Part shown: piece after piece, positions 23,505 through 51,497 of the stretch | Numbering within the stretch: the stretch's first letter is position 1 | How the letters are laid out: every line of letters starts with the position of its first letter | Assembly (NCBI RefSeq): GCF_004358445.1 | Contig: NZ_CP037951.1 | Span: forward strand, 1,537,501 to 1,601,500 | DNA from: Parashewanella tropica | GTDB taxonomy: Bacteria; Pseudomonadota; Gammaproteobacteria; Enterobacterales; Shewanellaceae | DNA: 64,000 bases | Direction of reading: 5' to 3' | Made by a program: the position numbers and the translations under genes | Notes under the pieces: model-generated | Told to the model about the DNA's origin: nothing | Seen by the model: only the letters and a program-made list of their open reading frames with translations | Databases searched by the model: none

Positions 23505-23651
23505 AGAGTAATAGCGTAAACAGCAACCGAAGCGCACATCTGATAGGCAGGAAGCCTGAATGCCATGAAGCACATGGATGTGCGAGAATGGCCCTGTGCT
23601 GACGACCGTGACATCCTGTCACGGACGGTTGTTTTATCACGCTATTACTCT
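23505..23651 (+). repeat. Palindromic intergenic element, long copy (147 bp)
   Basis: Outer arms AGAGTAATAGCGT and ACGCTATTACTCT are exact reverse complements. Inside lies the common core hairpin CCGTGACATCCTGTCACGG (23606-23624) and a larger second arm. Compared with the 97-bp copies it has about 50 extra bases inside the GCACATC...GTGC arm. It sits 40 bp past tdk, convergent with the thiamine operon, and may act as a bidirectional terminator. Confidence 0.88.
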
Positions 23652-23682
23652 CATTGGATTATTGGTGGCCTTTGTAATCCCT

Positions 23683-24624
23683 TTACTTTGCTAGAGAGTA
23701 ATATTCCTTAAACTGTTTACTCGTTTCAGTAATTTCGCTACTACTTTCCAACTGTTCGATAAGAACCCGACCCGCCATAATCACTACCCAATAATCATAA
23801 AAACTCCAAAAGAGTTTAGTGGCGATTTCAAATTCAACTCTATTTGATAAATTCAATTCTGAATGTGATTTTAGATAATCAGTAACGATTAGTTTTTTAT
23901 CACTTTCAGTAAGATCATGGTTTTCAATTAACGAAGCCAGTTCAAAAAGTGGGTGTGATTGGCAGGCGTATTCAAAATCAATACAGATTAATTGTCCGTT
24001 TTTGATGAGTATATTCTCTGGGTTTAAATCCCTGTGACAGAATTGAGGTTTTACGTTTAAGCTCTCAAGAAAATCGACCCAACCTTTGATGTTAGGTTGT
24101 AGTGAATCTAGTTTTGATTTCAGTTTATTCCATTGCTCATATTCAGTGAGCAAATCAAAGTTATTCGTTTGTAGCAACTGAGTTGTAATAGATTGAACTT
24201 GTTGCTGATAGATTTGCCATTGCTGTTCGCAAGTGATTATTTTTGTGGGCAAGGGCAGAGTGCTCAGAGCATTCAATAGTTTTTGGACTTCTTTTAATCC
24301 ATATCCTTTATCTATCGGTTGCTGAATATATTCACTCAAATAGAAGTTATTATCTCCACTTACCCAAAACAACTTTGGCGCAAGACTACTTTGCTCTGCT
24401 ATTCGCCAACACTCAATTTCATTTTCTCTATCGCAAATAAAACTGGATTCAGCAGAATTGACTCTGAGTACATAATCTTGCGTAGGAGTATTGATTAAAA
24501 AATTACGGTTACTTTTTCCCGCAGTCAGAGTAGAGACTGAAGTCATGTGCGGAATGATCGAGAGCCTCGTATCATGTTCACAATACTCAAGTGCACTTAT
24601 TACTTCTGCGGGAAAAGACTCCAT
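23683..24624 (-). CDS. Thiamine kinase-like phosphotransferase (APH/ChoK family)
   Basis: The 313-aa protein has the kinase-like fold of aminoglycoside/choline phosphotransferases. GKSNRNFLI occupies the nucleotide loop, CHRDLNPENIL (about 197-207) is the catalytic loop with Asp, and CIDFEYA carries the metal-binding Asp. As the last gene of a TPP-riboswitch operon with a thiamine receptor and PnuT-like carrier, it most likely phosphorylates imported thiamine (ThiK-type); the substrate is inferred from context. Its ATG overlaps the stop of the transporter gene by one base (TAATG), indicating translational coupling. Confidence 0.8.
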   Translation of the reverse strand: MESFPAEVISALEYCEHDTRLSIIPHMTSVSTLTAGKSNRNFLINTPTQDYVLRVNSAESSFICDRENEIECWRIAEQSSLAPKLFWVSGDNNFYLSEYIQQPIDKGYGLKEVQKLLNALSTLPLPTKIITCEQQWQIYQQQVQSITTQLLQTNNFDLLTEYEQWNKLKSKLDSLQPNIKGWVDFLESLNVKPQFCHRDLNPENILIKNGQLICIDFEYACQSHPLFELASLIENHDLTESDKKLIVTDYLKSHSELNLSNRVEFEIATKLFWSFYDYWVVIMAGRVLIEQLESSSEITETSKQFKEYYSLAK

Positions 24625-25253
24625 TAAGCAAAAGACTCCGTTTTATCGCTACTTGAGTTTTGTTTCATTGAATCTCGCCATTGCTTATAACCAATGACAG
24701 AAAGTACAAGATACAACCCAAACAACACTGAAGTTAGCATCAACTCTTTATTGATATAGAGGTAAATAGATACTGAGTTTATTACTAACCAATAGAGCCA
24801 GTTTTCCAATACTTTTTTAGCCACTAAGTAAGTCGTTACTACTGCAAAACAGGTTGTAGCAGTATCTAAGTATGGATACGAGGCATGGGTATGGTTTGCC
24901 ATAAAGTACCCTAAGATAAGCGATACGATTGTGGTTGTGGCAATAATGGCTAAATGCCTTTGCTTAGACCAAGAGACAACTTTTACGCCATGTTGCTCAG
25001 CACCGCCTTGGGTCCACATCCAATACCCATAAATCGCCATTGCTATGTAATAGAAATTCAGGATTGAATCCATTAACAAGGAGACTTTCCAAAAGATAAT
25101 GGTATAAATGAGTGAGCTAGTAAAAGCGGCAGCCCAACACCAAATATTCTGTCTCATTGCTAATACTAGGTAAGCAACAGCAAGAATAACAGCAAGTGCT
25201 TCCCAATTGGTCATTACAGACATTTCAGACTGTATTTTTGTAATTAAATCCAT
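24624..25253 (-). CDS. pnuT: PnuC-family vitamin transporter, probably thiamine (PnuT)
   Basis: A 209-aa inner-membrane protein with about seven hydrophobic helices. The NFYYIAMAIYGYWMW stretch (about 66-80) is the characteristic PnuC-family motif. PnuC proteins move riboside or vitamin precursors by facilitated diffusion, trapped by phosphorylation inside the cell. The riboswitch, the outer-membrane receptor upstream and the kinase downstream point to thiamine as substrate (PnuT); this is inference from context. The C-terminus is polar (KQNSSSDKTES). Confidence 0.85.
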   Translation of the reverse strand: MDLITKIQSEMSVMTNWEALAVILAVAYLVLAMRQNIWCWAAAFTSSLIYTIIFWKVSLLMDSILNFYYIAMAIYGYWMWTQGGAEQHGVKVVSWSKQRHLAIIATTTIVSLILGYFMANHTHASYPYLDTATTCFAVVTTYLVAKKVLENWLYWLVINSVSIYLYINKELMLTSVLFGLYLVLSVIGYKQWRDSMKQNSSSDKTESFA

Positions 25254-25347
25254 ATTGAACCTGAGTTTTGGATAATGAAATCTATTAATTTTTCATGTAG
25301 AGAGTGCATAATTCTATAGAGGTTTGCTTATCCTGAATTCAGGTTCA

Positions 25348-25608
25348 CTACTCTTTATGGGTTAAGTCGAGTTCCGAGCCGATAAATTTACAAACAAATA
25401 CGGCTTTGCCCCATTTAGAATGTGCTGCTTCCATTTCTGTTGCTAGCATACTCATGACTTCCTGATAATCACCACATACTTGAGTTGCCATAGCGTTAGT
25501 AGTACGAGTGATGTTTGGATAGTTGCGTAGGCGTTCAATAAACCACTGGATAGGCTCTAAGTAGTTTTCATTAAACGGATACATGCTGATTTCAGCTGTA
25601 AGTTTCAT
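25348..25608 (-). CDS. Small YkoF-like thiamine-binding protein
   Basis: From ATG 25606-25608 the protein is 86 aa (MKLTAEISMYPFNENYL...). The pattern AEISMYP, then an amphipathic helix, then TNAMATQVCGDYQEVMSML and a final FVCKFIG strand matches one half of YkoF-type thiamine/HMP-binding proteins. No signal peptide is seen. Position between a TPP-controlled receptor and a PnuT-like carrier supports a thiamine role. A longer frame from 25677 would start inside the palindromic element, so I reject that start. AAGGAACC precedes the chosen ATG but is folded into a hairpin (25615-25635). Confidence 0.65.
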   Translation of the reverse strand: MKLTAEISMYPFNENYLEPIQWFIERLRNYPNITRTTNAMATQVCGDYQEVMSMLATEMEAAHSKWGKAVFVCKFIGSELDLTHKE

Positions 25609-25614
25609 GGCTTG

Positions 25615-25635
25615 GTTCCTTTGATATAAAGGAAC
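25615..25635 (-). promoter_or_regulatory. Hairpin covering the ribosome binding site of the YkoF-like gene
   Basis: GTTCCTTT (25615-25622) and AAAGGAAC (25628-25635) are perfect reverse complements with a 5-nt loop. In the leftward mRNA the strand next to the ATG contains AAAGGA, the ribosome binding site; its partner strand is the end of the palindromic element. Confidence 0.55.
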
Positions 25636-25726
25636 TATAGTGCGCACGACAACAGAGGCGTACGTCCATGTACTCACGACCGTTACATCCTGTAACGGAC
25701 GGTTGTCTTAGCGCACTATAGTTCCT
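25630..25726 (+). repeat. Palindromic intergenic element (97 bp)
   Basis: The arms AGGAACTATAGTGCGC and GCGCACTATAGTTCCT are perfect reverse complements. Inner hairpins are GTACGTCCATGTAC (25660-25673) and CCGTTACATCCTGTAACGG (25680-25698). Both differ from the other copies by paired changes that keep the stems. It lies between the receptor gene (46 bp after its stop) and the YkoF-like gene, inside the thiamine operon. Confidence 0.92.
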
Positions 25727-25772
25727 ATCAAATTCAAATCACTGAATACGGAAATTAATATATTGAGTTCAA

Positions 25773-27905
25773 TTAGAACTTAATATTAGTGGTGATACCA
25801 AACGCTCTAGGATCACCAAAGCGAATGTACTGCTTCTTCACCCAATCTTGGTCAGGTTCGTTACCAAAGAAGAAACCACGAACGCCGTATTTCTTATCAA
25901 ATAAGTTACGTCCCCAAAGGTAAACACCCCAATCCTCAGTTTCATAACCCACTCTAGCATTGAAGATTTGGTAACCTTTTGACTTAGAGTCGTTACTGTC
26001 AGAGTAGAAAAACTTACTCTTACCACTGGTATTTAGGTTCACAAAAATACCATTATCAGCACGATAAGTCGCACCTAAGCTGTTAGTAAATTTAGGAGCA
26101 TGTGCAAGCTCACGACCCGATAAATCGATAACTTTACCGCGTTTGTCTTTATAGCTGTAATCGCCGTAAGTAGCACGTAATAAACCTAAGCTTGCATAAA
26201 CCTCTAGGTTATCCGTTGCTTGCCATTTAGCATCAACCTCTAGACCATAGTTGCTTGAGTTACCCGCATTCTCTGTATAAAGGATAAAGCGATCTGGACG
26301 GTCAGGATCTTGTTGTGATGCAGAAACTTGCTGATCTTGTCTATCCATGTAGAACAACGCAACATTAGTGCTTAGAGAATTATCCAACCAACGAGATTTG
26401 AAACCTAGCTCGTAGTTATATAGCACTTCAGTGTCGAACTGCTTTTTATCTTCAAAGCCTTTTGGCAAGCTCATATTAAAGCCACCAGCTTTATAGCCAC
26501 GAGCAATTCGAATGTAAGTGCTGTGTTGCTTAGAAAGCGTTTTGCTTAGTGAGATATGGCCACCCCACATATTTTCAGATGGTGAGAAAGCCTCTTTTTT
26601 ACTGTCTGTGTAGTCGCTATTACGACGCTCAAAACGAAGGCCATTGGATAAGCTATAGCCATTACCCAAATCAGTATCTAATTGACCGAAAACAGCATAG
26701 TTTGTCGCTTCATAATCTGAATCGATGCCACCACGGTCACCGTTATAAACATCGAATTGACTGTTGTCTTCTTTGAGGTTCATGGCGTAAACACCCACCA
26801 ACCAATCAGTCGAGCCAGCGAAGATACGTCCCGATTCTTTTGGAGTTAAACGGAACTCTTGTGACAGAGTTTTACGATTGCCGGTTTTGCTCCAAATCGC
26901 ATTGTATTCACATGGCTTATCACCACATTTACGGCTTTCCCAGTATTTAGGGTTTGCCCAATCACTGTCATAAGCGTGTAGATGTTTACTCTCTGAAAAA
27001 GAGGTAATTGACGTAATGTTAAAGTCATCAGCACCAGTATGGCTTATTTTAAGGCTTGAACCTGTGGTGCGTTGGCTGTCTTTACCCGGTTTGTCACTTA
27101 AGGTTTTAAAGCCGTTGTTATTTAATGTCCAAGCGTCATAACCATTGTCGAAATTGGCATGTAAAACGGTTAAGTCAGCAGTCGTGCCATCGTTGATTAA
27201 CCAACGTAGTTTCATTCTGCCAGAGAATTCATCACGCTTGTTGGTATCGTCACGGTTTAAGAAGGTGTTTTTTCTAAAACCGTTTTGATTATGTTGCTGA
27301 ATAGAAACACGATAAAGCACTGAATCAGAAATAGGGCCAGAGCTAAAACCACTGAAAGTACGTAAATCGTCATTACCTACTGATACTTCAGCACCGTGTT
27401 CAAAAACATCGCTAGGGTCATTACTTTTTAGGTAAATAAGACCAGCAAGTGCATTTGCACCGTAGCGAGTACCTTGAGGGCCACGAAGTACTTCAACTTG
27501 CTGTAGGTCGTACATGCTAGAAACCATGCCTAAACCAGATAAGTCGATATCATCAATGACATAACCTACTGATGAGTTCGGAGCACCTTTATAATCTTCT
27601 TGCTCACCAACACCACGAATTTGGAAGTAACGTGGGCGAGAAGTCGCACCAGACCAGTTAAAATTGGCGATAGAATTCAGTACGTCTTCAAAGTGCTGAT
27701 CGCCTTCATCTTCTAATTGTTTAGCATCAATGATGGTTGCACTAGCTGGTAAGGTAAGTAAGTCGTGTTGGCGGAAATCAGCGGTTACTTTGATAACTTC
27801 GATATCGTCATTCTGCTTGGTTTCAGCAATAGCTTGTCCACAAACAGCTGCAGAAATGATCAGTGCAAGTGGAGATAATTTTTGTTTTAAAGCTTGGTTT
27901 AACAT
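25773..27905 (-). CDS. TPP-riboswitch-controlled TonB-dependent receptor (thiamine uptake)
   Basis: Outer-membrane beta-barrel of 710 aa. It has a signal peptide (ending GQAIA-E near residue 27), a plug domain beginning with IEVIKVTADFRQ (TonB-box region) and VEVLRGPQGTRYGANALAGLIYL, and a barrel ending in a C-terminal Phe (TTNIKF). The TPP riboswitch upstream and the transporter and kinase downstream identify thiamine or a derivative as likely ligand; Shewanella has a comparable riboswitch-linked receptor. The ribosome binding site GAGG is inside a hairpin at 27907-27930. First gene of a four-gene leftward operon. Confidence 0.92.
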   Translation of the reverse strand: MLNQALKQKLSPLALIISAAVCGQAIAETKQNDDIEVIKVTADFRQHDLLTLPASATIIDAKQLEDEGDQHFEDVLNSIANFNWSGATSRPRYFQIRGVGEQEDYKGAPNSSVGYVIDDIDLSGLGMVSSMYDLQQVEVLRGPQGTRYGANALAGLIYLKSNDPSDVFEHGAEVSVGNDDLRTFSGFSSGPISDSVLYRVSIQQHNQNGFRKNTFLNRDDTNKRDEFSGRMKLRWLINDGTTADLTVLHANFDNGYDAWTLNNNGFKTLSDKPGKDSQRTTGSSLKISHTGADDFNITSITSFSESKHLHAYDSDWANPKYWESRKCGDKPCEYNAIWSKTGNRKTLSQEFRLTPKESGRIFAGSTDWLVGVYAMNLKEDNSQFDVYNGDRGGIDSDYEATNYAVFGQLDTDLGNGYSLSNGLRFERRNSDYTDSKKEAFSPSENMWGGHISLSKTLSKQHSTYIRIARGYKAGGFNMSLPKGFEDKKQFDTEVLYNYELGFKSRWLDNSLSTNVALFYMDRQDQQVSASQQDPDRPDRFILYTENAGNSSNYGLEVDAKWQATDNLEVYASLGLLRATYGDYSYKDKRGKVIDLSGRELAHAPKFTNSLGATYRADNGIFVNLNTSGKSKFFYSDSNDSKSKGYQIFNARVGYETEDWGVYLWGRNLFDKKYGVRGFFFGNEPDQDWVKKQYIRFGDPRAFGITTNIKF

Positions 27906-27906
27906 G

Positions 27907-27930
27907 GGACCTCAAAATAATCTGAGATCC
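27907..27930 (-). promoter_or_regulatory. Shine-Dalgarno-masking hairpin (riboswitch expression platform)
   Basis: In the leftward mRNA GGATCTCA (27930-27923) pairs with TGAGGTCC (27914-27907), hiding the GAGG site just before the ATG at 27905-27903. The masking strand also contains GATCTCAG (27929-27922), which is exactly complementary to the CTGAGATC of the TPP aptamer (28070-28063). The two pairings exclude each other. Confidence 0.7.
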
Positions 27931-28015
27931 GGCATTCGGTAAGCGCTATGAAAGTGCGAATAAAATGTTCACGACAGAATGTCATGACATTTTTTCATGG
28001 CATTAAAAAGCCATT

Positions 28016-28107
28016 TAGCCCATTCCTACGCCGGTATAAGCCGGATCAGGTTCTAAGGGTTTGATCTCAGTTCACAGACTTTTATCTGCAAACACCCCTC
28101 GGCGGCG
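28016..28107 (-). ncRNA. TPP riboswitch (THI element) aptamer
   Basis: Read leftward, the conserved order is visible: GAGGGGTG, a small stem-loop GCAGATAAAAGTCTGT, the THI signature CTGAGATC, ACCC, GAACCTGATC, and the hairpin CCGGCTTATACCGG followed by CGTAGG. All of the conserved TPP-contacting blocks are present. It lies 110 bp upstream of the receptor gene and so controls the thiamine uptake operon. The remaining intergenic bases to 28275 hold the presumed promoter; I see no gene there. Confidence 0.96.
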
Positions 28108-28275
28108 GCAATTATATAGGAAATTAAAATAAAAAATGAGACAAATGTTGCGAAAATATGAATTAAAATAGCTTTATTGGTTTAATTGTGAGCAATTGTA
28201 CGGTTTTGGTTGAAATGAGTGATGTCTAGAAGGGAAAGCGGCTTTCAGGTATCAACCGAAAACCGCTCAATAAGA

Positions 28276-29805
28276 TTAAATGATAGCTGGGATACCTTTA
28301 ATCATGCCAACTGCAAGCATAGCTGCAAGGCAAATCACAAAAGCTAGAGTTGGAATAACAACACGGTCGGCAAATGAAAGTTGTTTTGGTCTTTCTTTAT
28401 CACCAATCAATCCATTGTTATCTAAAAGCATGGTTAGTGCCCATGCTAACACTGGGTTAGCAACAAACGCCGCAAAAATACAAATGCCAGCAGCTTGACT
28501 GCTGACGCTGTCTTTAACCATTTGCAAGCCAGCTTCAAGTAGTGGTAAGAATACACCAACAAGTAAAGCAATTGACATTACTGGTCGCCAAACCGCAACA
28601 TCCATAGGATAGCCAAGTATCGCGACTACAATACAAAGCAAGCCAAGTAAGATTGCTCCAGCTGGAATAGGGCGTTTGGCAATCGCAGCAGGGATCATAT
28701 AAGTTCCCCAAGACGAAGTGATGTTACCACCACCAACAGCTGTACCAACAATCTGACGAAGAGAACAAGTGGTCATGGTATCGTCAACGTCCATGAGCAC
28801 TTTATCTGTACCTTTAGGGTAGTTCAGCTCTTGGAAAATACGGTGCCCCAAAAAGTCAGGCGACCACATGGCTACAGCTAAAATCGCAAATGGTAAAGAA
28901 GCAATAAAGTGTTCAACATTAGGTAAGCCTAGCTGCCAACCTGTTTCAGTTGAGCCCCACCAATAAACAGGGTTTAAGTTTGGAAGACCTGGAGCGGTTA
29001 CAAATTGTAAATCTAACCCTGCACCTAAACCAAAAGCAACGATAATTGCCGTAATTGAGCAAAGAGGAATCGCTAACCAACGCTTTTCAATTTTTGCTAG
29101 GAAGGCATAAAGCACCACGTTGATAAGTAAGATAACAAACGCAACATATGATAATGAATAGTCGAGAGCATGTTTAGCTTGAAGCCCAGCAGACCAGTCA
29201 AATAATGAAGTGATTTGACCTTTGGCTCCCATAAACCCTAAATAAACGAGTAAACCACCGGCAACACCACTACTGGTGAGGTTTACGAGTCGGGAACCTC
29301 CTTTTAGCCAACTGAGGATCAAACCAAATACACCAATAAGAATGGCGAGAGCAAGAGGGTGAGCACCAGCAAGAGCAATTGTGCCAATAAGAGGGATCAT
29401 TGGGCCATGATTGCCGCCAAGGTTAGCTCTAGGGTTGATAAAGCCAGAACTTAGTACGCAAAATAGTAACGCTGGAATCAACATTTCGACGCGCATTACT
29501 TGAATCGCGAAATCTGCACCTAAATTAACATGAGGCCATTTCTCCGTTAAACCCGCTGCCCAAGCCGCCATTACAGCAGAATACATTACGGTAATACCGA
29601 TAGTACCCGCTATGGCTGGTACAAGATCTTCCCATTCAAATCGAAAGTCACGCCCGGGTAAATTAAGCCCCCAACGGCGTGGCTTCATAATTTGAAGCTC
29701 GTGTTCTAAATAGTCGCTTCTGGATTCGAATTCAGAAGCAGGTCGATGCAGTTCTTGATAGCTTGCATTGTCCAAGTTTTGATCATTCATTTTATTTTCT
29801 GACAT
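28276..29805 (-). CDS. Multipass permease-like membrane protein (DUF3360-like)
   Basis: The 509-aa protein has an N-terminal cytoplasmic stretch of about 60 residues followed by roughly 12 hydrophobic segments. GNHGPMIPLIGTIALAGAHPLALAI and the GGGNITSSWGTYMIPAAI segment resemble the substrate-site halves of NCS2/SulP-like permeases. It seems to match the uncharacterised DUF3360 family common in Shewanella and Vibrio; this is from memory of the family. The substrate is unknown. GGGAG lies upstream of the ATG. Its neighbours (thiamine operon and TonB receptors) are separate units, so context adds little. Confidence 0.75.
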   Translation of the reverse strand: MSENKMNDQNLDNASYQELHRPASEFESRSDYLEHELQIMKPRRWGLNLPGRDFRFEWEDLVPAIAGTIGITVMYSAVMAAWAAGLTEKWPHVNLGADFAIQVMRVEMLIPALLFCVLSSGFINPRANLGGNHGPMIPLIGTIALAGAHPLALAILIGVFGLILSWLKGGSRLVNLTSSGVAGGLLVYLGFMGAKGQITSLFDWSAGLQAKHALDYSLSYVAFVILLINVVLYAFLAKIEKRWLAIPLCSITAIIVAFGLGAGLDLQFVTAPGLPNLNPVYWWGSTETGWQLGLPNVEHFIASLPFAILAVAMWSPDFLGHRIFQELNYPKGTDKVLMDVDDTMTTCSLRQIVGTAVGGGNITSSWGTYMIPAAIAKRPIPAGAILLGLLCIVVAILGYPMDVAVWRPVMSIALLVGVFLPLLEAGLQMVKDSVSSQAAGICIFAAFVANPVLAWALTMLLDNNGLIGDKERPKQLSFADRVVIPTLAFVICLAAMLAVGMIKGIPAII

Positions 29806-30052
29806 AAATAGTATCGCTCCCAGATGGTCAAACTGAGACAGTCTCTTGAAGAGAGTTTAAATCTAAATTGGTATTACCAATTTACCTATTGGGGATAGTA
29901 ACAGAAGATGTGGTGCGGCATCAGTACTGAAATCACAGCTTAAAAGATTGAATGGAAAAAATTGAGATCTTGGTAACAAAATCGAGAGCTTAATTGATAG
30001 TTCTAAATAAGTTGAGTGCTGGATGTGAAATTACAGTTTTGTTATTGGAAAG

Positions 30053-30081
30053 AAAAAAGCGACTTCATTGAAGTCGCTTTT
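30053..30081 (-). terminator. Rho-independent terminator of TonB receptor gene at 30098
   Basis: AAAGCGACTTC (30056-30066) and GAAGTCGCTTT (30070-30080) pair around ATT. Leftward, a run of six T follows. It ends 17 bp past the stop. Confidence 0.9.
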
Positions 30082-30097
30082 GAATATTCGTTAAATA

Positions 30098-32794
30098 TTA
30101 GAATTTAACTTCAGTTTCTACAAACCATTCACGTCCGCGAGCGTTGAATAGCGAACGCTCATAGTGTGGCCAGCTTGATAATGTTGGGTCAAAGTTAGGA
30201 CCTTTATCAAATAGGTTCAAGATACCTGCTTTGATTTGAACATCGTCAGAAACGTTGTAAATCGAAGTGAAGTTCCACTTAACGTATGAAGCTACTTCAT
30301 TAGCCTTTTCATCAAAGTTCTTAGAGTTAGCTTTTACTGACTTATAGCTTGCACCATGGTGTCTTGCAGTGTAGAACATACCAAGAGTTGTTGTGAAATC
30401 TTGATAATTCCAAGCTGTAACGAAGCTACCTTTTAGTCGAGCAATACCGCCGTCATCGATGTCATCATCAACAGGAGAAGCTGCATCAATTTGGCTTTCT
30501 GATTTAAGCAAGTAGGTCGCTTTAGTTTTGAAAGAAAGCTCACCTAGAGCGTCCATTTCATAAGTGTAACCACCTTCTAAATCAATACCGCTTACCTTTT
30601 TAAATGAAAGGTTTTGCGCTACAGAGTTGATGTGAGTAATTTTTCCTTGAGCATCACGAGTAATATCTTTTTCGTAAAGCTTATGTTCACGAGCTTTTCT
30701 AGAAGCTGATACAGTAGTAACCATATCATTTAGCTTCCACTCCCAAACATCAATAGAAACGTTTAGCTCGTCAGTACCGTATACGGCACCAACATTTGCT
30801 GTATAACCTTTCTCTGCTTTCAGATCTGGGTTAGCGCCTGTTGTAATATCGATGTGTAATTCATTACATACGGTATTTACATTGTCAGGTAGACCTTTAA
30901 TAACCTTGTCAGGTGTTCCACCAAGTTCTAGGCATCGTTTAACGTCAGTTACTTGAGAGAAACCTGTAGAAGGGTCACCGTATACACGTTGCATATCTGG
31001 AGCACGGAATACCTTGTTATATGAACCACGTACTAGAAGTTCATCAATTGGACGGTATTCTACAGCGATAGATGGCGTAACATTACCACCAAAGTCACTG
31101 TATTTGTCATAACGAAGTGCTAAGTCAAAAGTCAGCTCATCTAAAACAGGAACTCTAAGCTCTGAGTACACTGCGTAGAATGAACGCTCACCTTGACCAG
31201 AAGAACCACCAGTACCTACAACATTACCAGCTTTAGATTCAGTATCTGCATTAGCACGATATTTTTGCTTAGACCACTCAGAACCTAAAGCAAATTCTAG
31301 ATCATTACCATTTGGAAGCTGTAAAGCAACACCTGAGATATTTGCTTGGAAGTTCAGTAGCGAAGAAGTCGCACGAGAATGAGGCGTGTACTCTAACTTT
31401 TTGTATGCATCTTTTGAAATAGGATCAAGAAGAGACTTACCATTTTTCTCAGAAGTGATGTAGTCTACGATTTTTTGCTCTAGGCTATAACCGCTATTAA
31501 ATACATCTAAATCTGTTTTTCCGTAGTTTGCAGATACGTCCCAGCTATATTCGTCAGCTAAAGTACCCTCTAGAGCAAATGAGCCATAATAGTTTTGGGT
31601 ATTGGTTTCACCTTTACGGTTACCCAAACCATTCAAACGTCTGATGTAGTAGTACTTACCGTCTTCAGCGTTCGCAAAATCCCCGCCAAATGCATCAGCC
31701 TTGTTATAAGTAAATTTTCTACCATAAGCATTAACATTTACTTTATTTTCTTTAACTTCAACATCCACACCATCAGTTGACGTAGGTTCAATCAATGTGG
31801 TTGATTTAGCTTTTGCGAAATCAATTCGGCCATTAAAAATGGTGTCATCAGTTAACTCGTAATTAAAAATAGTCGAGCTGATAAAACGGTAACTTTCTGG
31901 GCTTAGGTCACGTTGCTTAGAGCGGTCATATCCACAACGATTGTTTGCTTTATCCCATAGTAAGTCTTGGGTTTCACATTGTTCTTGATTAAGTGCTCTT
32001 TGGCCTTTTGCACCTTTAGAGTTTGGAGCAATACGTGCACCGTATGAGCTGTATTTAGATTTAACACTGTGTGGTACTTTATCTGTATCTAAGCCAAAGT
32101 TAGCTCTGTCAGTAGTCTTTAATTGTTCATTGAAGTTAAGTTCAACAAAGCTAGATACATTACCACGTTCTGAACTAGAACCAAGAGATAAAGCTACACG
32201 AGAGTTAGCTCCACCACCATGAGTAGTATCACCGCGACGGGCTTTTAATGCGATTCCTTCAAAATCTCTTTTCAAAATGATGTTGATAACACCACCAACG
32301 GCATCTGCACCATAAATTGCAGACGCACCAGATTGAAGAATTTCAACACGAGCTACAGCTTCCATTGGCAAGTTTGCAGTATCTACAAAGTTATCTGTAC
32401 CATTTAAGAATTTAGGGTATTGATTTAATCGTTTGCCGTTAATCAAGGTAAGGGTACGGTTAGCTCCTGCACCTCTTAGGCTAATTGCAGATGCTGAAGG
32501 AGTATATCCATGCACTGATTGTGTAGTAACTGCACCTGTTGTTGCGCTTAGATTTTCAAGAGCATCTTGAACATTAGTAAAACCTTGCTTGGCCATGTCA
32601 TCAGCACTTAATACGACAACTGGATTAGCAGTTTCCATATCAGTACGTTTAATACGAGAACCAGTAACTTGAATACGTTCTACATTTGCTGACTCTTCTG
32701 CTGCGATTACGTTTGCAGTAGACAATGTTGCAGATGTTGCACCAGCTATTAACGCGAGGCGTACAGCTTTGGCTAATACAGCATTAGCTTGCAT
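30098..32794 (-). CDS. TonB-dependent receptor, 898 aa
   Basis: Outer-membrane active transporter powered by TonB/ExbBD. It has a signal peptide (cleavage near AAEES, about residue 32), a TonB-box-like VERIQVTGSRIKRTDME, a plug domain (residues about 60-175, ending VEILQSGASAIYGADAVGGVINIIL), and a 22-strand barrel ending in ETEVKF. The large size and VTGSRIKRTD leader are typical of Alteromonadales receptors for peptides, glycans or other non-siderophore nutrients. The ligand cannot be told. A long extracellular loop holds paired cysteines (CETQDLLWDKANNRC). It is a diverged paralogue of the next receptor. Confidence 0.93.
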   Translation of the reverse strand: MQANAVLAKAVRLALIAGATSATLSTANVIAAEESANVERIQVTGSRIKRTDMETANPVVVLSADDMAKQGFTNVQDALENLSATTGAVTTQSVHGYTPSASAISLRGAGANRTLTLINGKRLNQYPKFLNGTDNFVDTANLPMEAVARVEILQSGASAIYGADAVGGVINIILKRDFEGIALKARRGDTTHGGGANSRVALSLGSSSERGNVSSFVELNFNEQLKTTDRANFGLDTDKVPHSVKSKYSSYGARIAPNSKGAKGQRALNQEQCETQDLLWDKANNRCGYDRSKQRDLSPESYRFISSTIFNYELTDDTIFNGRIDFAKAKSTTLIEPTSTDGVDVEVKENKVNVNAYGRKFTYNKADAFGGDFANAEDGKYYYIRRLNGLGNRKGETNTQNYYGSFALEGTLADEYSWDVSANYGKTDLDVFNSGYSLEQKIVDYITSEKNGKSLLDPISKDAYKKLEYTPHSRATSSLLNFQANISGVALQLPNGNDLEFALGSEWSKQKYRANADTESKAGNVVGTGGSSGQGERSFYAVYSELRVPVLDELTFDLALRYDKYSDFGGNVTPSIAVEYRPIDELLVRGSYNKVFRAPDMQRVYGDPSTGFSQVTDVKRCLELGGTPDKVIKGLPDNVNTVCNELHIDITTGANPDLKAEKGYTANVGAVYGTDELNVSIDVWEWKLNDMVTTVSASRKAREHKLYEKDITRDAQGKITHINSVAQNLSFKKVSGIDLEGGYTYEMDALGELSFKTKATYLLKSESQIDAASPVDDDIDDGGIARLKGSFVTAWNYQDFTTTLGMFYTARHHGASYKSVKANSKNFDEKANEVASYVKWNFTSIYNVSDDVQIKAGILNLFDKGPNFDPTLSSWPHYERSLFNARGREWFVETEVKF

Positions 32795-39230: not shown

Positions 39231-39327
39231 AGGAGTGAGAGTGTGATAAGACAACCGTCCGTGACAGGATGTCACGGTCGTCAGCACATGGACGTGCGTT
39301 TCTGTTGGCGTTCACACTATTGCTCCT
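39231..39327 (-). repeat. Palindromic intergenic element (97 bp), reversed orientation
   Basis: Arms AGGAGTGAGAGTGTGA and TCACACTATTGCTCCT form an imperfect inverted repeat. The core hairpin (39259-39277) and the small hairpin GCACATGGACGTGC (39284-39297) appear in the opposite orientation to the copies at 23505, 25630 and 51401. It begins 61 bp after feoB and precedes the feoAB terminator. Confidence 0.92.
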
Positions 39328-39368
39328 GAGTTATGTCAGGGCAAATTCGCCCAAAGGGTAAAAACCTT

Positions 39369-41166: not shown

Positions 41167-41191
41167 ATAGATTTTTGTTATCTCTTAACTG

Positions 41192-41221
41192 AAAATGCCA
41201 GTCACAATGACTGGCATTTTT
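41192..41221. terminator. Bidirectional terminator between glnS and the Yip1-family gene
   Basis: AAAATGCCAGTCA (41192-41204) pairs with TGACTGGCATTTT (41208-41220). It has T-runs on both strands and serves the convergent genes. Confidence 0.9.
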
Positions 41222-41236
41222 TATGGTGGATAGTAT

Positions 41237-42131: not shown

Positions 42132-42314
42132 GTGACAATTTATCGTTGTTTGTTTCTATCACTTCCATGGAGTTATTGGTTGGGTTTTGGATTAACCCTT
42201 TGGCTGCTGTTTGATTTAGTTCGAGGAGAAGCGTATATCTGGGAGTCGTACAAACGCTCAGAACAGCTAGTTGCTTTATATTTGTTTAACAAAATCTTAT
42301 GTTTGGAATATTAA
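42132..42314 (+). CDS. Possible small membrane protein, 60 aa (GTG start)
   Basis: A frame with GTG start, a hydrophobic helix (WLGFGLTLWLLFDL) and a charged C-terminus, ending one base before the Rieske oxygenase ATG. The predicted transcription start from the promoter at 42094-42121 falls within a few bases of the GTG, so it would be translated leaderless or not at all. No ribosome binding site. It may be a leader peptide, a decayed gene or chance. Confidence 0.3.
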   Translation: MTIYRCLFLSLPWSYWLGFGLTLWLLFDLVRGEAYIWESYKRSEQLVALYLFNKILCLEY

Positions 42315-42315
42315 A

Positions 42316-43473: not shown

Positions 43474-43474
43474 A

Positions 43475-44515: not shown

Positions 44516-44593
44516 AGTTACTCAATGTAAATACAGATTTTGTTCAGTTAGACCAAATTAGTATTAGGGAATTATAACTAATCCCTTAATGCT

Positions 44594-46105
44594 ATGAACA
44601 TTAGAAGTAAAAGCTTATCTATTCTGTGTGCCTGTTTTGCTGTCGGGGGCAGTGCCGCTTCAGCAGCAACGATTCCAGTTCACGTACAATGTAATGTTAG
44701 TGCACACACTGCAATGGCCGCTACCCTCACATTGCCTAAAAATCTTGGTTTTTTCTTTGTTAACTCAGACGTAAGCCCGAGTGATATACAAGCACTTTAT
44801 GTATCAGGTACAAAGAAAGACAGTTATTTTTCCTTTGAAGGGCTACAAAATAATAAAAATTTCACCGTTACTTATAATCAGCTTGTGACTGATCAACAGT
44901 CAAATCAACCTGTCAGACGTTATAAACTTAAATTTGGTAGCCCACAACAAGACAGCAACTTTAGTCATGTTTTCATAAATAAAAATTTACTTAATTCGGC
45001 TAATAATTTGGTACAAATAGATGGACGGGTTGAATATTGCTTGGATCACCCTGATTTTAAAGAAGATCTGAATGCCCAAATCACCTTACAAGTCCCATAT
45101 GATTATGATGGTGATCAAATATTGGATTATTGGGAAGTAAGCAAGCCAGGCGTTCAAGTGACAGATGATGCTATTCCTGTTGATTTTAAAGGTGGTAATG
45201 GCTCTCCATTGAGTATTTATATTGAAGCAGGAGTGACTGAAACTGGAATAAATTATCATAAGGCACTCCAAGGGGATAGCCCTTTTGACAGCATAGATTT
45301 GACTTTAATCCCTAATGATAATAAATCGTTGCTTCCGGATTCTTCCGTTAGACAAGGATTTATAGATCTTCTTCCTACTTACTCCAAGAACATCGATATT
45401 AGAGATGTCCCATTAGGTAGTGCGATGTCAGAAATTGATGCACACGCGATAAACATACAAACAGCATATCTTAACAATAGTACAGCCAATGAAACGGATT
45501 TCAATTCTTTACCCTCAGTTTTACGGGTTGTAGATAATACTTTCTATCTAAATCATTATAATGCACCACCTCCTACTCCGGGTTGGTATATACCTGACGT
45601 TACTGTTGAAAAATTCAACGACTCTGTTGGGGGAGATACATTTAAATCTGTAAAGTCATTCACTGATGTTCCACCTGTGATTAGTAGAAATGATTCGATA
45701 GTTTCCAATCAAATATCAAAGCTCATAGAGTTGGGGAGTGCGTTTCAAAATCAAGTATTAGATTTTGATGTTTTCAAGCAAGAAAGATTTTATATCGTAA
45801 ACAGTGTCGATTCTGAAGGCAGAGTTAAGTTAGCTAGAATTCGATCAGGTGACAGTGCTACTAATCCCATCTGTTTTGATTTTTCAAAGCTAAGTAATGG
45901 CGATATAACATGGTGGGGCAGTAGAGTGCGCTGGCTGATTAAAGATGAAAACGGTAACGTCAAAATTCAGGAAGGGTATTTTGGTTGGCATGCTCCAGAC
46001 GGTAACTACGCTTTCCTAAATTTAAATGATGGTGTTAAATCACTATCAACCTTACCTAAAAAAGGGGATGTGATTGCGTTTGAATTCGCAAAAGTTGATC
46101 AGTAA
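44594..46105 (+). CDS. Secreted hypothetical protein, 503 aa (tandem paralogue 1)
   Basis: I do not recognise the family. A signal peptide is clear (SKSLSILCACFAVGGSAASA before ATIPV). The mature part is beta-rich and contains NLGFFFVNSDVSPSD, LVTDQQSNQ, VDFKGGNGSPLSIYIE and, near the C-terminus, DITWWGSRVRWLIKDENGN and GWHAPDGNYAFLNL. All of these recur in the next gene. Few cysteines after the signal. It could be a surface or matrix protein; that is a guess. Confidence 0.75.
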   Translation: MNIRSKSLSILCACFAVGGSAASAATIPVHVQCNVSAHTAMAATLTLPKNLGFFFVNSDVSPSDIQALYVSGTKKDSYFSFEGLQNNKNFTVTYNQLVTDQQSNQPVRRYKLKFGSPQQDSNFSHVFINKNLLNSANNLVQIDGRVEYCLDHPDFKEDLNAQITLQVPYDYDGDQILDYWEVSKPGVQVTDDAIPVDFKGGNGSPLSIYIEAGVTETGINYHKALQGDSPFDSIDLTLIPNDNKSLLPDSSVRQGFIDLLPTYSKNIDIRDVPLGSAMSEIDAHAINIQTAYLNNSTANETDFNSLPSVLRVVDNTFYLNHYNAPPPTPGWYIPDVTVEKFNDSVGGDTFKSVKSFTDVPPVISRNDSIVSNQISKLIELGSAFQNQVLDFDVFKQERFYIVNSVDSEGRVKLARIRSGDSATNPICFDFSKLSNGDITWWGSRVRWLIKDENGNVKIQEGYFGWHAPDGNYAFLNLNDGVKSLSTLPKKGDVIAFEFAKVDQ

Positions 46106-46232
46106 GTTGCGCTGATTATTATCCATATAGAAGTGGAGAGTAAGATGCTAATCATACCTAGCAATGGGTTAAGGTGTAATTCAGCTCTTTTGATTAGGAT
46201 AGAAAAATGCTCTTTTAATCAAAAGTAAGATT

Positions 46233-47750
46233 ATGGACATTAAACGTTATTTTCTTGCAACTGTTTGTTGCTTAAACTTAGTGACGTTCAGCTCTGTAGC
46301 CGCAACAATTCCACTGCACATGGAATGTGCTCACACTTCTGGTTTTAACAATACTGTTTTTCAATTTCCAAAAAATCTTGGTTTCTTTTTCGTTAACTCG
46401 GATGTCAGCCCAAGTGACGTTTATGGCTTAGAGTTTAAAGATCCCAACTCGGAAACTACCTATGCCGTTTCAGGCTTTAAATACAATACTGATTTTGCCG
46501 TTACGTTAAATAAACTGGTTACCGATCAGCAATCTAATCAAAGAGTTCGGCGTTTTAAAGTTAAATTTTTAGAGCGTAAGCAAGATAGTAATTTTGATCA
46601 TAAAAACTTAATGAATGGTGAGCATTCAACACCAATTAGCAACTCTACAGATAACGATACTTTTGGAGTCACTACCTTTACCAAGTATTGTGATATATAC
46701 CCTAAATACAGTGCTGATCTGCAATACGAAGTCAGGTTAATCGTTCCTTATAGCTCTGGGGGGCGCTGGGGTGTCAGTAAACCAGGGACTCAAATATCAG
46801 AAAATGCTATACCTATCGATTTTAAAGGTGGTAATGGTTCACCATTAAAAATGTACATTGAAGGTGGGTTAACCGTTACAGGGATTAACTATCAAGATGA
46901 AGTTAGGTCTAGTCTTTATCCTCAAACGATAAATTTAAAGTTAACTTCGCTAGGCAGTAATTTGGGTGTTGCAGCATTTGATTCAGTTGATGGAGAAGTT
47001 AACCGCTTTAATTATTATTCGAATATAAGAAAATTAGGGAGCCATGCAGGCGTTACCAATTTTGTCATTGATCATAATTCGCTAAGTTTTGAAATGGGAT
47101 TAATAGATAATGCTACTCTACAAGAAACTGAGTTTAATTCTTTACCTTCAGTTCTCGAAACGGTAACAGAGAGAAATAATTCGATATCTCCAGCGCTTTA
47201 CAACGCTCCAACACCTGAGCCGGGTTGGTATTCTCCAGATATTGTGGTTAACACTAGGATTCACTCATCTCTTGGAAATAAAGGGATAATATCTTCAGCA
47301 TCAGTTGATGAAAAACAGACGGTTATTACTAGTAATTCAACTGAAATATCTGAACAAATATCTAAATTAATGGAAGCGGGTGATGCATGGCAAGATGAGC
47401 TTCTTGCTCCAGAGGCTTTTCCATTTGGTCGCTTTTACACTATCAGCAGTATTGATGGTGATGGAAGGATCAAGTTGAAGTCAATTGAACCTAATACTTC
47501 TAGTGATGGCAATGTTAACTATTTGGATTTTTCAAAAATAAGTGATGGCGACATTGTGTGGTGGGGAAGTTTAGTGCGTTGGTTTATAAAAGACGACAGT
47601 GGGAATGAAATAGTTCAACAGGGATTCATAGGTTGGCACGCACCAGATGGCAGTTATGCTTTTCTTAATTTAAGCGGCAATACAAAGTCCCTTAATACCT
47701 TGCCGCATATAGGAGATATTGTGGCGTTTGAATATGTGATGCTAAATTAA
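46233..47750 (+). CDS. Secreted hypothetical protein, 505 aa (tandem paralogue 2)
   Basis: Diverged tandem copy of the preceding gene. It has a signal peptide (FLATVCCLNLVTFSSVAA before TIPLH). It shares the blocks NLGFFFVNSDVSPSD, LVTDQQSNQRVRRFK, DFKGGNGSPLKMYIEGGLTVTGINY, and the C-terminal DIVWWGSLVRWFIKDDSGN and GWHAPDGSYAFLNL. The middle part differs most. The 127-bp gap to the first copy holds no obvious terminator, so the two may be co-transcribed. Function unknown. Confidence 0.75.
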   Translation: MDIKRYFLATVCCLNLVTFSSVAATIPLHMECAHTSGFNNTVFQFPKNLGFFFVNSDVSPSDVYGLEFKDPNSETTYAVSGFKYNTDFAVTLNKLVTDQQSNQRVRRFKVKFLERKQDSNFDHKNLMNGEHSTPISNSTDNDTFGVTTFTKYCDIYPKYSADLQYEVRLIVPYSSGGRWGVSKPGTQISENAIPIDFKGGNGSPLKMYIEGGLTVTGINYQDEVRSSLYPQTINLKLTSLGSNLGVAAFDSVDGEVNRFNYYSNIRKLGSHAGVTNFVIDHNSLSFEMGLIDNATLQETEFNSLPSVLETVTERNNSISPALYNAPTPEPGWYSPDIVVNTRIHSSLGNKGIISSASVDEKQTVITSNSTEISEQISKLMEAGDAWQDELLAPEAFPFGRFYTISSIDGDGRIKLKSIEPNTSSDGNVNYLDFSKISDGDIVWWGSLVRWFIKDDSGNEIVQQGFIGWHAPDGSYAFLNLSGNTKSLNTLPHIGDIVAFEYVMLN

Positions 47751-47829
47751 AGTAATTTGTGCTGTAATGGCTATGGGCTAAAGACTGGTTACGGTACAAT
47801 TATGATTTTTAATCACAGGAATTCAGTCG

Positions 47830-48591
47830 TTGAGCTACACAGAGTTACTATCTCCAATTCATCAATTTTTAAAATGCAGAACGCCTGAACAATGGATAGA
47901 AGAGGCGATAAAGCCTGAAAATTTGTCAGTGATTTTAATCGATCATTTAATTTGTGAATTAAAGGCGGCTCAAAGTGCGATGTACTTAATTCGTAAATAT
48001 GCCGTTGATAAAGAAAGTGGAGATGCGCTATTAGAATGGCTGAAGCCTTTTGAGGATTTTGCTTACCGTAAAGAGGGAAATTGGCGCGAACTGGTTAAAC
48101 ACAATACGTTAACAAAATCTATGTTACCTAAGTCAGGCACGCCTTATGGGCAAGACTTGATTGATAAAATGGTTTTGCTGATAAAAGAAGAGTTACATCA
48201 TTTTTATCAAGTATTAGAGCTGATGGATGAGTTTAACGTTCCTTACGAAAACATCACTTCAAGTCGATATGCCAAAGGTATGATCCGTCATGTAACTAGC
48301 TATGAACCAGATACCTTGATTGATAAATTGATCATCGGAGCTTATATCGAAGCCAGATCGTGTGAACGCTTTGCAGCGATTGCTCCTCATGTTGATAAGC
48401 GATTAGGTGATTTCTATGTTTCTTTACTTCGTAGTGAAGCTCGCCATTATCAAGATTATTTGACGTTAGCAGAAGAAATTGCTGGTGGTGATATCAGTGA
48501 GCGCGTTAAGTTCTTCGGAGAAAAAGAAGCTGAGTTAATCAGTACTCCTGATGCTGATTTTAAGTTTCATAGTGGAGTACCAACAATCTAA
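47830..48591 (+). CDS. miaE: tRNA 2-methylthio-N6-isopentenyladenosine hydroxylase
   Basis: MiaE is a non-heme di-iron monooxygenase that hydroxylates ms2i6A37 in tRNAs reading UNN codons. The 253-aa product has the ferritin-like metal motifs: E-L-K-A-A-Q-S-A, KEELHHFYQ, the later IEARSCERF and SEARHYQDY. The start is TTG at 47830 with AGGA nine bases before it; no upstream ATG fits. It converges on lpxH with only two bases between. Confidence 0.92.
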   Translation: MSYTELLSPIHQFLKCRTPEQWIEEAIKPENLSVILIDHLICELKAAQSAMYLIRKYAVDKESGDALLEWLKPFEDFAYRKEGNWRELVKHNTLTKSMLPKSGTPYGQDLIDKMVLLIKEELHHFYQVLELMDEFNVPYENITSSRYAKGMIRHVTSYEPDTLIDKLIIGAYIEARSCERFAAIAPHVDKRLGDFYVSLLRSEARHYQDYLTLAEEIAGGDISERVKFFGEKEAELISTPDADFKFHSGVPTI

Positions 48592-48593
48592 AT

Positions 48594-49304
48594 TTAAAAA
48601 GGTAGTGTGTGTAAAGTGGCTCCATCATGTGACACTTCTAACATACTGCCTTGTTCATACCAATCACCAACTACAATCCGTTCTTTGGTTTCATCAACTT
48701 GGTTATACCCAGGACGATGCGTATGCCCGTGAATCATTTGCACAGTCTTGGTTTGCTGCATCAGTTGCTTAACCGCTGATGGTTCAACATCCATTATCTG
48801 AGTTGTTTTGTATTGGTTTGAGCTTTTACTTTTATTGCGGATCTTTCTAGCAATTGCTCGGCGTATCCCACCTGGTAGGCTAGCATAAAGCCATTTTACC
48901 CATGCCTTATTTCGAAACTTACGAAATTTTTGATAATCTTCATCCAAAGTGCAAAGGCTGTCACCGTGTAAAATTACGGTGGGCTTACCATACAAATCGA
49001 GGGTATGAACTTCATCAAGAATTCTCATTCCGGCTTGGCGTGCATATCTATGACTTAATAAAAAGTCACGGTTGCCATTAATAAAATAAATTTTGGTATA
49101 TCGAGAAATCGCTTTGAGTTTTTCAGCGACTTCAATAGCAAAAGGTTCTGCTACATCGTCACCAACCCAAACTTCGAAAAGATCACCAAGGATATACAGC
49201 GCCTCAGCTTTTTGAGCGTGAGTCTGTAAAAAGTGAAAAAAACAATCTGTGATATAAGGGTGATCTTCACTTAAATGAAGATCACCAATAAAAAGTACAC
49301 TCAT
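48594..49304 (-). CDS. lpxH: UDP-2,3-diacylglucosamine pyrophosphohydrolase
   Basis: LpxH makes lipid X in lipid A biosynthesis at the inner membrane. The 236-aa calcineurin-like phosphoesterase shows the metal motifs GDLHLSED, GDLFEVWVGDD, NGNRDFLL, HGDSLCTLD and GHTHRP. It lies downstream of ppiB on the same strand, 9 bp apart, as in E. coli. Confidence 0.97.
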   Translation of the reverse strand: MSVLFIGDLHLSEDHPYITDCFFHFLQTHAQKAEALYILGDLFEVWVGDDVAEPFAIEVAEKLKAISRYTKIYFINGNRDFLLSHRYARQAGMRILDEVHTLDLYGKPTVILHGDSLCTLDEDYQKFRKFRNKAWVKWLYASLPGGIRRAIARKIRNKSKSSNQYKTTQIMDVEPSAVKQLMQQTKTVQMIHGHTHRPGYNQVDETKERIVVGDWYEQGSMLEVSHDGATLHTLPF

Positions 49305-49313
49305 ACTAAAAAA

Positions 49314-49808
49314 TTAGCCGTCGATAGATACTTTTTCAATGATAACAGCCTCTAATGGTACGTCAGCATGCATGCCTTTAGTACCAGTAGCTACGCCTTT
49401 GATTTTCTCAACAACGTCCATACCTTCAACAACTTCACCGAATACACAGTAACCCCAACCTTGAAGGGTTTCTGATTTGAAATCTAAGAAATCATTATCT
49501 TTAACGTTGATAAAGAACTGTGAAGAAGCAGAGTGAGGCGCTTGAGTACGAGCCATTGCAAGAGTACCTTTCTTGTTAGAAAGACCATTGTTTGCTTCGT
49601 TTTGAATCGCTTCTTTAGTGGTTTTTTGCTGCATATCTTCAGTGAAACCACCACCTTGGATCATGAATCCATCAATAACACGGTGGAAGATAGTGCCATC
49701 GAAAAAGCCATCTTTAACGTAAGACTCGAAGTTTGCAGCTGTGATAGGCGCTTTTTCGTGGTTAAGTTGGATTTTGATATCACCAAAGTTTGTATGTAAT
49801 GTGATCAT
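49314..49808 (-). CDS. ppiB: Peptidyl-prolyl cis-trans isomerase B (cyclophilin)
   Basis: A cytoplasmic cyclophilin of 164 aa without a signal peptide. [13 protein letters not shown] is the active-site block with the catalytic Arg, and [13 protein letters not shown] and [15 protein letters not shown] complete the fold. It is divergent from cysS across 187 bp that must carry both promoters. Confidence 0.97.
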
Positions 49809-49995
49809 TTTGATAACTACTTCAAAGAATAAAACTGAATTTTAGCTTAATCCTTATTTTCACTCAATTAGATCCCGTCTTATAAAAAACAAGAGTATTC
49901 AAGTTAGTCAACACCATGCTAGAATTTTATCTCGTTGTCGGTGGTTGTGGGATATCACACCACTATTGTTATAGTTTTTTCAAAAGAGATCGAAG

Positions 49996-51375
49996 ATGCT
50001 GAAGATATACAACAGCTTGACCCGCAAAAAAGAAGAATTTACGCCAATTCGTTCAGACAAAGTTGGCATGTACGTTTGTGGAGTCACCATCTACGATCTC
50101 TGTCATATTGGTCACGGTCGAACGTTCGTGTCTTTCGATATGATTGCTCGTTACCTTCGATACAAAGGCTACAATCTGGATTATCACAGAAACATCACTG
50201 ATGTTGATGACAAAATCATTAAACGTGCCAACGAAAACAACGAGTCATGCGACGAGCTTACGGAACGCTTGATCAGTGAAATGTATGCTGATTTTGATGC
50301 GCTTAATATGATCCGCCCAGATCTTGAACCTCGTGCCACTCAACACATTCCTGAAATGATTGATATGGTTGAGCGTCTAATTGAACGTGATCATGCTTAT
50401 GTGTCAGAAAGTGGTGATGTGCTGTTCCGCGTTGAATCATTTGCTGATTATGGTCGTTTATCTGGTCAGGATTTAGATCAACTTAAAGCAGGTGCGCGCG
50501 TTGAAGTTGAAGACTCAAAAGAAAATCCAATGGACTTCGTACTGTGGAAAATGTCTAAGCCAGGTGAGCCAACTTGGGATTCACCATGGGGACCTGGTCG
50601 TCCAGGATGGCACATTGAATGTTCAGCGATGAATAGCAAGCATTTAGGCTTACATTTTGATATTCACGGTGGTGGTTCAGACTTACAGTTCCCACACCAT
50701 GAAAACGAAATCGCGCAATCATGCTGTGCCCATGACACGCCTTATGTGAACTATTGGATGCACTCTGGCATGGTGATGATCGACAAAGAGAAAATGTCGA
50801 AGTCATTGAATAACTTTTTCACCATTCGTGATGTACTTGAGCATTATGATTCTGAATCAGTACGTTACTTCTTGTTGTCAGGTCACTACCGTAGCCAAAT
50901 CAACTACACCGAAGATAACTTAAATCAAGCTCGTGCTGCGGTTGAACGTTTATACACCGCAATTAAAGATTTAGATTTGAGTGTTGAGCCTGCTGAAGCC
51001 CCAGAGTTAGTTGCTAAGTTTGATGCGGCTATGGATGATGACTTCAATACACCTGAGGCTTATTCGGTGCTATTTGACATGGCCCGTGAAATCAATCGCT
51101 TGAAAGGTAAGGATGATGTTGCTGCTAATGCATTAGGTGCAAAACTGAAGCAACTTGCTGATGTGTTAGGTTTATTGAAGCAAGAACCTGAAGCCTTCTT
51201 TAAAGGTGAGGGCAGTCAAGATGAAGTGGCTGAAATCGAAGCTTTAATTGTTGAGCGTAACCGTGCAAGAACGGAAAAAGATTGGCCTGCAGCCGATAAA
51301 GCTCGTGATGCGTTAAATGCACTTGGTGTCATTTTAGAAGATGGTGCAAACGGTACTACTTGGCGTAAGAAGTAA
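49996..51375 (+). CDS. cysS: Cysteinyl-tRNA synthetase
   Basis: Class I synthetase charging tRNA-Cys; 459 aa. The zinc ligand Cys28 lies in [16 protein letters not shown] with HIGH at 37-40; KMSKS is at 266-270. The zinc site is completed by the GWHIECSAM and [13 protein letters not shown] regions. The 97-bp palindromic element begins 26 bp after the stop. Confidence 0.98.
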
Positions 51376-51400
51376 CTATTCAACCAAAGTAAGTTATAAA

Positions 51401-51497
51401 AGGAGCAATCATGTGGACGTCAACTGAAGCGCACGTCCATGTGCTGACGACCGTGACATCCTGTCACGGACGGTTTCCTTTCCACACAATTGCTCCT
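51401..51497 (+). repeat. Palindromic intergenic element (97 bp)
   Basis: Arms AGGAGCAATCATGTGGA and TCCACACAATTGCTCCT pair with few mismatches. The small hairpin is GCACGTCCATGTGC (51431-51444) and the core hairpin CCGTGACATCCTGTCACGG (51451-51469). It starts 26 bp after cysS and precedes the shared cysS/folD terminator. Confidence 0.93.

Follow-up and report, generated by a model that had tools for sequence, protein, structure and literature searches.

A dispersed YPAL-like repeat in Parashewanella with a strand-selected three-way junction and candidate CsrA-binding hairpin loops

The closest described relative of the element reported here is YPAL/RU-2, the palindromic sequence of Yersinia, which like the family below is dispersed and mainly intergenic (PMC2759123, PMC2229807, PMC2267715). 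In PMC2267715, YPAL is listed with an RNAz score of 1.00 and marked '+++' in another column. For the global RNA-binding regulator CsrA, PMC7652899 gives RUACARGGAUGU as the consensus from systematic evolution of ligands by exponential enrichment (SELEX), with ACA and GGA fully conserved and the GGA in a hairpin loop, and states that one CsrA dimer bridges sites 10-63 nt apart with an optimum of more than 18 nt. We analyzed a 64,000-nt stretch of Parashewanella tropica (NZ_CP037951.1, positions 1,537,501 to 1,601,500; hereafter the window) in which four copies of a palindromic intergenic element had been predicted from the letters alone. All four were confirmed at the positions listed in Table 1, and three of them were exactly 97 bp, while the 147-bp length of the copy at 23505 was due to an extra domain of ~52 bp in the loop of its small hairpin. 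With slightly more confidence than doubt, we read this family as dispersed elements of the YPAL type, each bearing an RNA module with two CsrA-binding sites, the binding by CsrA being predicted from the loop sequences.

The three-way junction formed by the sense strand of the element consists of outer arms with 16 pairs, a 6-pair inner stem and the hairpins P3 and P2. We assessed the pairing in A3, a gapless alignment of 41 copies collected by blastn and by a core pattern, which is free of the biases that come from fitting to a model and from choosing the best-scoring loci (see A5 and A6 below). As many as 96.0% of its 1435 cells were paired, as compared to 89.3% with the 3' letters shuffled and 25-53% with the partners slid. 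Two-sided changes occurred in 19 of the 35 pairs, and 98 cells were compensated relative to 23 in shuffles, indicating that variation kept the stems more often than it broke them, a point on which the original prediction had been staked. The two paired changes that it had named for the 25630 copy were also real. When up to three mismatches were allowed, the core pattern matched four times in the window and not once in each of 100 shuffles, and the RNA folds of each window copy, on both strands, beat 200 out of 200 dinucleotide shuffles (z -3.65 to -9.14). Two-sided changes were found in 31 of the 35 pairs in A5 (36 sequences from 4 genera) and in 33 of the 35 in A6, where 416 cells were compensated as compared to 112 in shuffles. 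The 33 copies of A6 come from 29 loci, each in a different genome. Fitting to a model makes both A5 and A6 lean towards structure, and for A6 the loci used were those with the best scores, taken from 29 out of 60 other genomes that had a match. Strong pairing and conservation stopped at the ends of the 97 nt. Beyond them we found one weakly paired position (32 Watson-Crick pairs relative to 24.2 in shuffles; 17 G-U and 3 A-C) and weak flank preferences for A at -8 (66 of the 101 Parashewanella copies) and T at +1 (70 of 101).

The mismatches in the arms revealed a strand preference. We counted the arm pairs on the sense strand in 87 distinct gap-free 97-nt copies, leaving out the 14 of the 101 copies that have other lengths, and found 1218 Watson-Crick, 90 G-U, 10 A-C and 74 other pairs. 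If transitions were neutral, G-U and A-C should be equally frequent, so that the excess of G-U represents a strand bias, with a binomial p of 3e-17 for 90:10 if cells are taken as independent, which those of related copies are not. The 41 A3 copies, which were found without a structure model, had 46 G-U and no A-C on the sense strand, and correspondingly no G-T and 46 A-C on the reference strand. In the 46 copies that were not part of the seed of our first covariance model (R1, see below), there were 44 G-U and 10 A-C, and in the class-wide set 17 and 1. The bias was present both at A-U pairs (32:3) and at G-C pairs (58:7), which rules out deamination of C as its cause. We also sorted the 101 copies by gene context with a simple frame caller, without a genome-wide background and with 12 copies overlapping a predicted frame: 46 were antisense to both neighbours, 28 were sense to both, 15 lay between convergent and 5 between divergent genes, and 7 were incomplete. 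The G-U to A-C ratio was 23:2 in copies sense to both neighbours (25 copies) and 44:3 in those antisense to both (40 copies), with 16:1 in the convergent (12 copies), 4:2 in the divergent (4) and 3:2 in the incomplete (6) contexts. Because the bias was unaffected by the orientation of the neighbours, it is not imposed by their transcripts, and neighbour-gene transcription was rejected as its source. Most likely, selection acts on the element's own sense strand, as RNA, and not via the mRNA of a neighbour. We regard the structure and the strand-specific selection as near certain, so that the description of a selected structured element given in the original prediction holds.

The loops of the two hairpins were almost invariant. 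Those of the window copies, which had been described as fixed, read AGGAN and ATGGAY on the sense strand. Among the 87 copies the P3 loop was AGGAN in 86 and the P2 loop contained NGGA in 84, and in A6 the GGA was kept in 32 of 33 (P3) and 33 of 33 (P2) loops. The bases flanking the loops that belong to the CsrA consensus were also nearly fixed (A34, C35, A56, C57, G64 and T65 at 99-100%, G41 at 98% and T42 at 100%), whereas the next pairs outward (33-43 and 55-66) covaried. By column, a distance of 23 nt separated the two GGA motifs in the 97-nt copies, and the same spacing was seen in 27 of the 31 measurable rows of A6. The exact 12-mer RUACARGGAUGU was present at the P2 loop in 8 of 33 A6 rows. 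On the antisense strand, ACA(N)GGA was found in only 2 of 33 A6 and 4 of 87 97-nt copies. The element therefore has the features of a CsrA-binding RNA, A(N)GGA in hairpin loops with sites 10-63 nt apart, and judging by these loops CsrA is a likely ligand. The csrA gene itself was found once in the P. tropica genome (G000) and once in each of four further genomes of the genus (G001 to G004). Across the class it was detected in 48 of 49 good-quality genomes bearing the element (47 of 48 without P. tropica) and in 232 of 265 others (Fisher one-sided p 0.018, uncorrected for kinship). Separately, we observed seven to eight csrA-family matches per genome in G610, G654 and G560.

We infer that the favored strand works as RNA with CsrA as its ligand, and the same holds for the effect of binding outlined here. 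Once transcribed, the sense strand would fold into a three-way junction of ~97-103 nt, with the outer arms serving as a clamp in which mainly the pairing matters and not the letters. The junction would present the two hairpins with a GGA in each loop, 23 nt apart, and one CsrA/RsmA dimer could bind across both hairpins of a copy. Taken together, the copies may serve as a multitude of small decoys for CsrA, or they may be sites where CsrA lands and thereby alters the fate of the transcripts in which they lie. In a broader form, which we put forward tentatively and consider less than even in probability, a class-wide dispersed family spreads dual CsrA-binding RNA through gammaproteobacterial genomes, such that mobile DNA sets the free level of a regulator and wires new genes to it. 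Repeats that are short and palindromic tend to be classed as DNA debris or as sites for DNA-binding proteins. In this family, one strand is favored as a folded molecule in one copy after another, its fold recurs throughout a class of bacteria, and a particular global RNA-binding regulator is suggested by the conserved loops. Given two sites in each of at least 72 copies, the family could rival the usual CsrB-type decoys.

To determine the copy number, we searched with R1, whose seed was 41 gap-free copies (31 from the P. tropica genome and 10 from P. curva), and with a broader model, R2; counts within the genus are lower bounds, with up to 150 candidates scored per genome. R1 matched at least 72 times in the P. 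tropica genome, where the original prediction would have failed had no further copies existed, at least 29 times in G004 (taken as Parashewanella curva) and not at all in G001 to G003. R2 gave at least 88 matches in P. tropica, at least 36 in G004, 3 in G001, 1 in G002 and 0 in G003, the four in G001 and G002 being weak (31-34 bits). A search of 84,980 species genomes for the exact core pattern returned Parashewanella curva C51 as the sole organism, the window's own records being possibly excluded. R1 matched 11 of 295 genomes of the order, P. tropica included. R2 matched 61 of 369 genomes sampled evenly from the class, again with P. tropica included and with up to 11 candidates scored per genome, or 49 of the 314 good-quality genomes and 56 of 272 genera. 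R2 also added a second subfamily of 101 nt, which at three loci lay next to a 97-nt copy in inverted orientation. In G001, G002 and G004, the extra domain of the long window copy also formed the center of a larger repeat with a length of at least 190 bp; the domain was absent from the P. tropica copy at 3954115 and present in its G004 counterpart, C60. This larger repeat may represent a third subfamily that shares the architecture of the element. By eye, further hairpins of the larger repeat (L199-L213) have GGA loops on either strand.

Of the 29 copies in G004, at least 14 shared an intergenic region with a P. tropica copy, 13 by two-sided flank BLAST and one in inverted orientation. The latter was the 25630-25726 copy (C66:10687-10783 in G004), and the aligned sequences of G001 and G002 at that locus had no element, with an unrelated small hairpin there as judged by eye. 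We compared 11 shared-locus pairs of 97-nt copies, including the inverted one and leaving out two pairs of unlike length and one of unlike subfamily. Of their 385 pair-sites, 301 were identical, 17 differed on one side only, 38 differed on both sides with the pairing retained, and 29 were unpaired in at least one copy. Four pairs had clearly aligning left flanks (C70, C19:48858, C96 and C52) and contributed 123 identical, 9 one-sided, 3 two-sided and 5 unpaired sites. The other seven had a left-flank identity of 0.55-0.63, the level of unrelated flanks (0.60, standard deviation 0.04), and contained most of the two-sided changes (35 of 38). In the pair C32 and 1649901, whose near flanks were both at the unrelated level, the 65-nt core was identical while the arms shared 13 of 32 bases and yet paired at 15 of 16 and 16 of 16 positions. 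Either these arms evolved under pairing alone as the spacer drifted or the copies arrived separately; because the cores share rare variants, common descent is favored, though not settled. In G562, near-identical units of ~230 bp were dispersed and also arranged in tandem, with TTA common to the junctions. The dispersal in both orientations, the presence or absence between species with few or no matches in sister species, the inverted locus and the G562 units together point to present or past movement of the element, in line with the original description of a mobilized element. No target duplication was seen in the 101 Parashewanella copies, in which flanks were compared for exact matches of 2-8 bases at offsets of 0-11; none of the top three combinations per length exceeded the largest of 300 shuffles, a comparison that would miss decayed duplications. 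The same copies had no clear longer arms. No companion transposase was identified, PF01797 being the sole transposase family searched.

Several observations weigh against the proposed CsrA module. The source of transcription is hard to see for the 46 of 101 copies that are antisense to both neighbours, and a fold of single-stranded DNA would be expected to give the same strand bias. The case for selection in place is thin, since the four alignable pairs offer only the 3 two-sided and 5 broken sites, and A6 leans towards the consensus through its use of the best-scoring copy per genome. The stem of P3 is at least 7 bp long, as compared to 4 or fewer contiguous pairs in most SELEX winners (PMC7652899), and 6-8 copies with the extra domain lack a simple P2 loop. 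As csrA was present in 280 of the 314 good-quality genomes overall, its co-occurrence with the element is weak evidence. There was no csrA match in G509, a good-quality genome with 5 element matches, nor in the less complete element-bearing genomes G322, G383, G414 and G655.

In an alternative reading, the fold is recognized by a mobilizing enzyme and not by CsrA. The sense strand would then be an intermediate of single-stranded DNA or RNA, only foldable copies would be copied, and the GGA loops and the junction would form a handle. The independence of the strand bias from neighbouring genes, the TTA-sharing units of G562 and the inverted copy speak for such an enzyme, and the concentration of two-sided changes where near flanks fail to align leaves room for separate arrivals. 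In addition, 48 copies were oriented against the replication fork and 24 with it (p 0.006), assuming an origin at position 1, near which a dnaN-like frame was read; this orientation is tied up with that of the genes. However, neither a transposase partner (apart from a single IS200-like match in the one family searched) nor a target duplication was seen, and the constraint on the loop plus its closing pair fits a known RNA-binding site, so that we consider this explanation unlikely, though a serious competitor.

A role for the element as a generic mRNA 3'-end or intercistronic structure, which stabilizes or protects transcripts without a dedicated ligand, seems improbable to us. The folds are stable and the copies lie near stop codons (25-60 nt from the nearest one in the window), with only 5 of 101 between divergent genes, but such a structure requires neither loop identity nor fixed spacing, and the wobble bias does not track the direction of neighbouring genes. 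The mRNA 3' structure of the original prediction is thus upheld as to position, while a function as 3' untranslated region only is weakened by the antisense-placed copies with the same bias. Less probable still is a passive miniature inverted-repeat transposable element (MITE) whose arms are kept palindromic by template-switch (quasipalindrome) correction in the absence of selection on the fold. It would explain arms that are well paired and very different, such as those of C32 and 1649901, but template-switch correction is strand-blind and would not yield 90:10 G-U over A-C, and it leaves the fixed loops across the class without an account. The dual CsrA-binding module is the reading that we prefer.

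Table 1. Copies of the element in the window, parts of the 39231 copy, and the 101-nt subfamily. Gene names are our reading of the translations.
Feature	Position	Strand	Context or detail
Long copy, 147 bp	23505..23651	sense strand -	between tdk-like gene and convergent kinase-like gene
Extra domain in P2 hairpin loop of long copy	23541..23592	-	
97-bp copy	25630..25726	sense strand -	between TonB-receptor-like gene and next same-strand gene
97-bp copy	39231..39327	sense strand +	between feoB-like and glnS-like genes, sense with both
P1 5' outer arm	39231..39246	+	partner 39312-39327; across the family sequence varies, pairing kept
P1 3' outer arm	39312..39327	+	
Hairpin P3	39256..39280	+	AGGAN loop, GGA = 39267-39269
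Hairpin P2	39284..39297	+	ATGGAY loop, GGA = 39290-39292, 23 nt past the first GGA
97-bp copy	51401..51497	sense strand -	between cysS-like and folD-like genes (convergent)
101-nt subfamily	L091 931-1031, L103 1010-1110, L127 1332-1432		inverted within 50 nt of a 97-nt copy

Two further features of the window were noted near the 25630 copy. A thiamine pyrophosphate (TPP) riboswitch lies at 28005-28109, upstream of the TonB-receptor-like gene that precedes this copy, and a stretch of 30-40 bp at ~25314-25357 matched at 90-94% at several places in G001 and G003 and represents another dispersed repeat. An open frame was visible by eye in some copies, but the idea of a peptide gene was dropped, as a TTAC variant places a stop directly after the ATG.

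We then compared the element with known systems. Like REP/BIME sequences with their RAYT transposases, ERIC, Correia and other MITEs, it is short, palindromic, intergenic and dispersed, ERIC and Correia being set beside it without sequence comparison. It differs in having a multi-branched fold and conserved loops, and in that no target duplication was seen and no RAYT found. The sole PF01797 match in the genome (E 0.001, a 137-aa frame) was IS200-like and its ends were, by eye, unrelated to the element, so the REP-like identity suggested at the outset was abandoned. Integron attC sites carry the core sites RYYYAAC/GTTRRRY; they were set aside by inspection, without a scan, as the copies are dispersed and not in an array. 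The CsrB/CsrC/RsmX-Z small RNAs likewise have GGA in hairpin loops and may sequester CsrA, whereas each copy of the element carries two sites and the copies are numerous and dispersed. No CsrB/C or Rsm family of Rfam matched over the elements tested, and a weak CsrC match in L160 was outside the element.

The kinship with YPAL/RU-2 is strong, although the family is a relative and not a member by every test. R1 and R2 link the window copies to the g64 copies L073 and L075, and these resemble YPAL/RU-2 by eye in the junction core and in both GGA hairpins (sequence in PMC2759123 Table 1b). The Rfam family RF02770 (Ysr224) matched the g64 loci L073 and L075 with 88.6 and 91.3 bits (gathering 70) and several other distant copies more weakly, in each case on the strand opposite to the sense strand of the element. 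At gathering, no Rfam family matched over the window elements, and L001 had no Ysr224 match even at E 5. In the accessible text, the YPAL/RU-2 unit is 168 bp, as compared to 97 bp in the window family, and has reported target duplications of 3-26 bp, whereas we saw none. Those passages mention neither CsrA nor strand-specific selection, and no CsrA link to such repeats was found in the available parts of the open-licence literature searched. An element that had at first not been recognized can therefore be placed beside YPAL/RU-2 (Rfam Ysr224) as its nearest described kin, with loops that fit the CsrA consensus, and as far as the literature at hand shows, the CsrA link and the class-wide distribution are what the present family adds to it.

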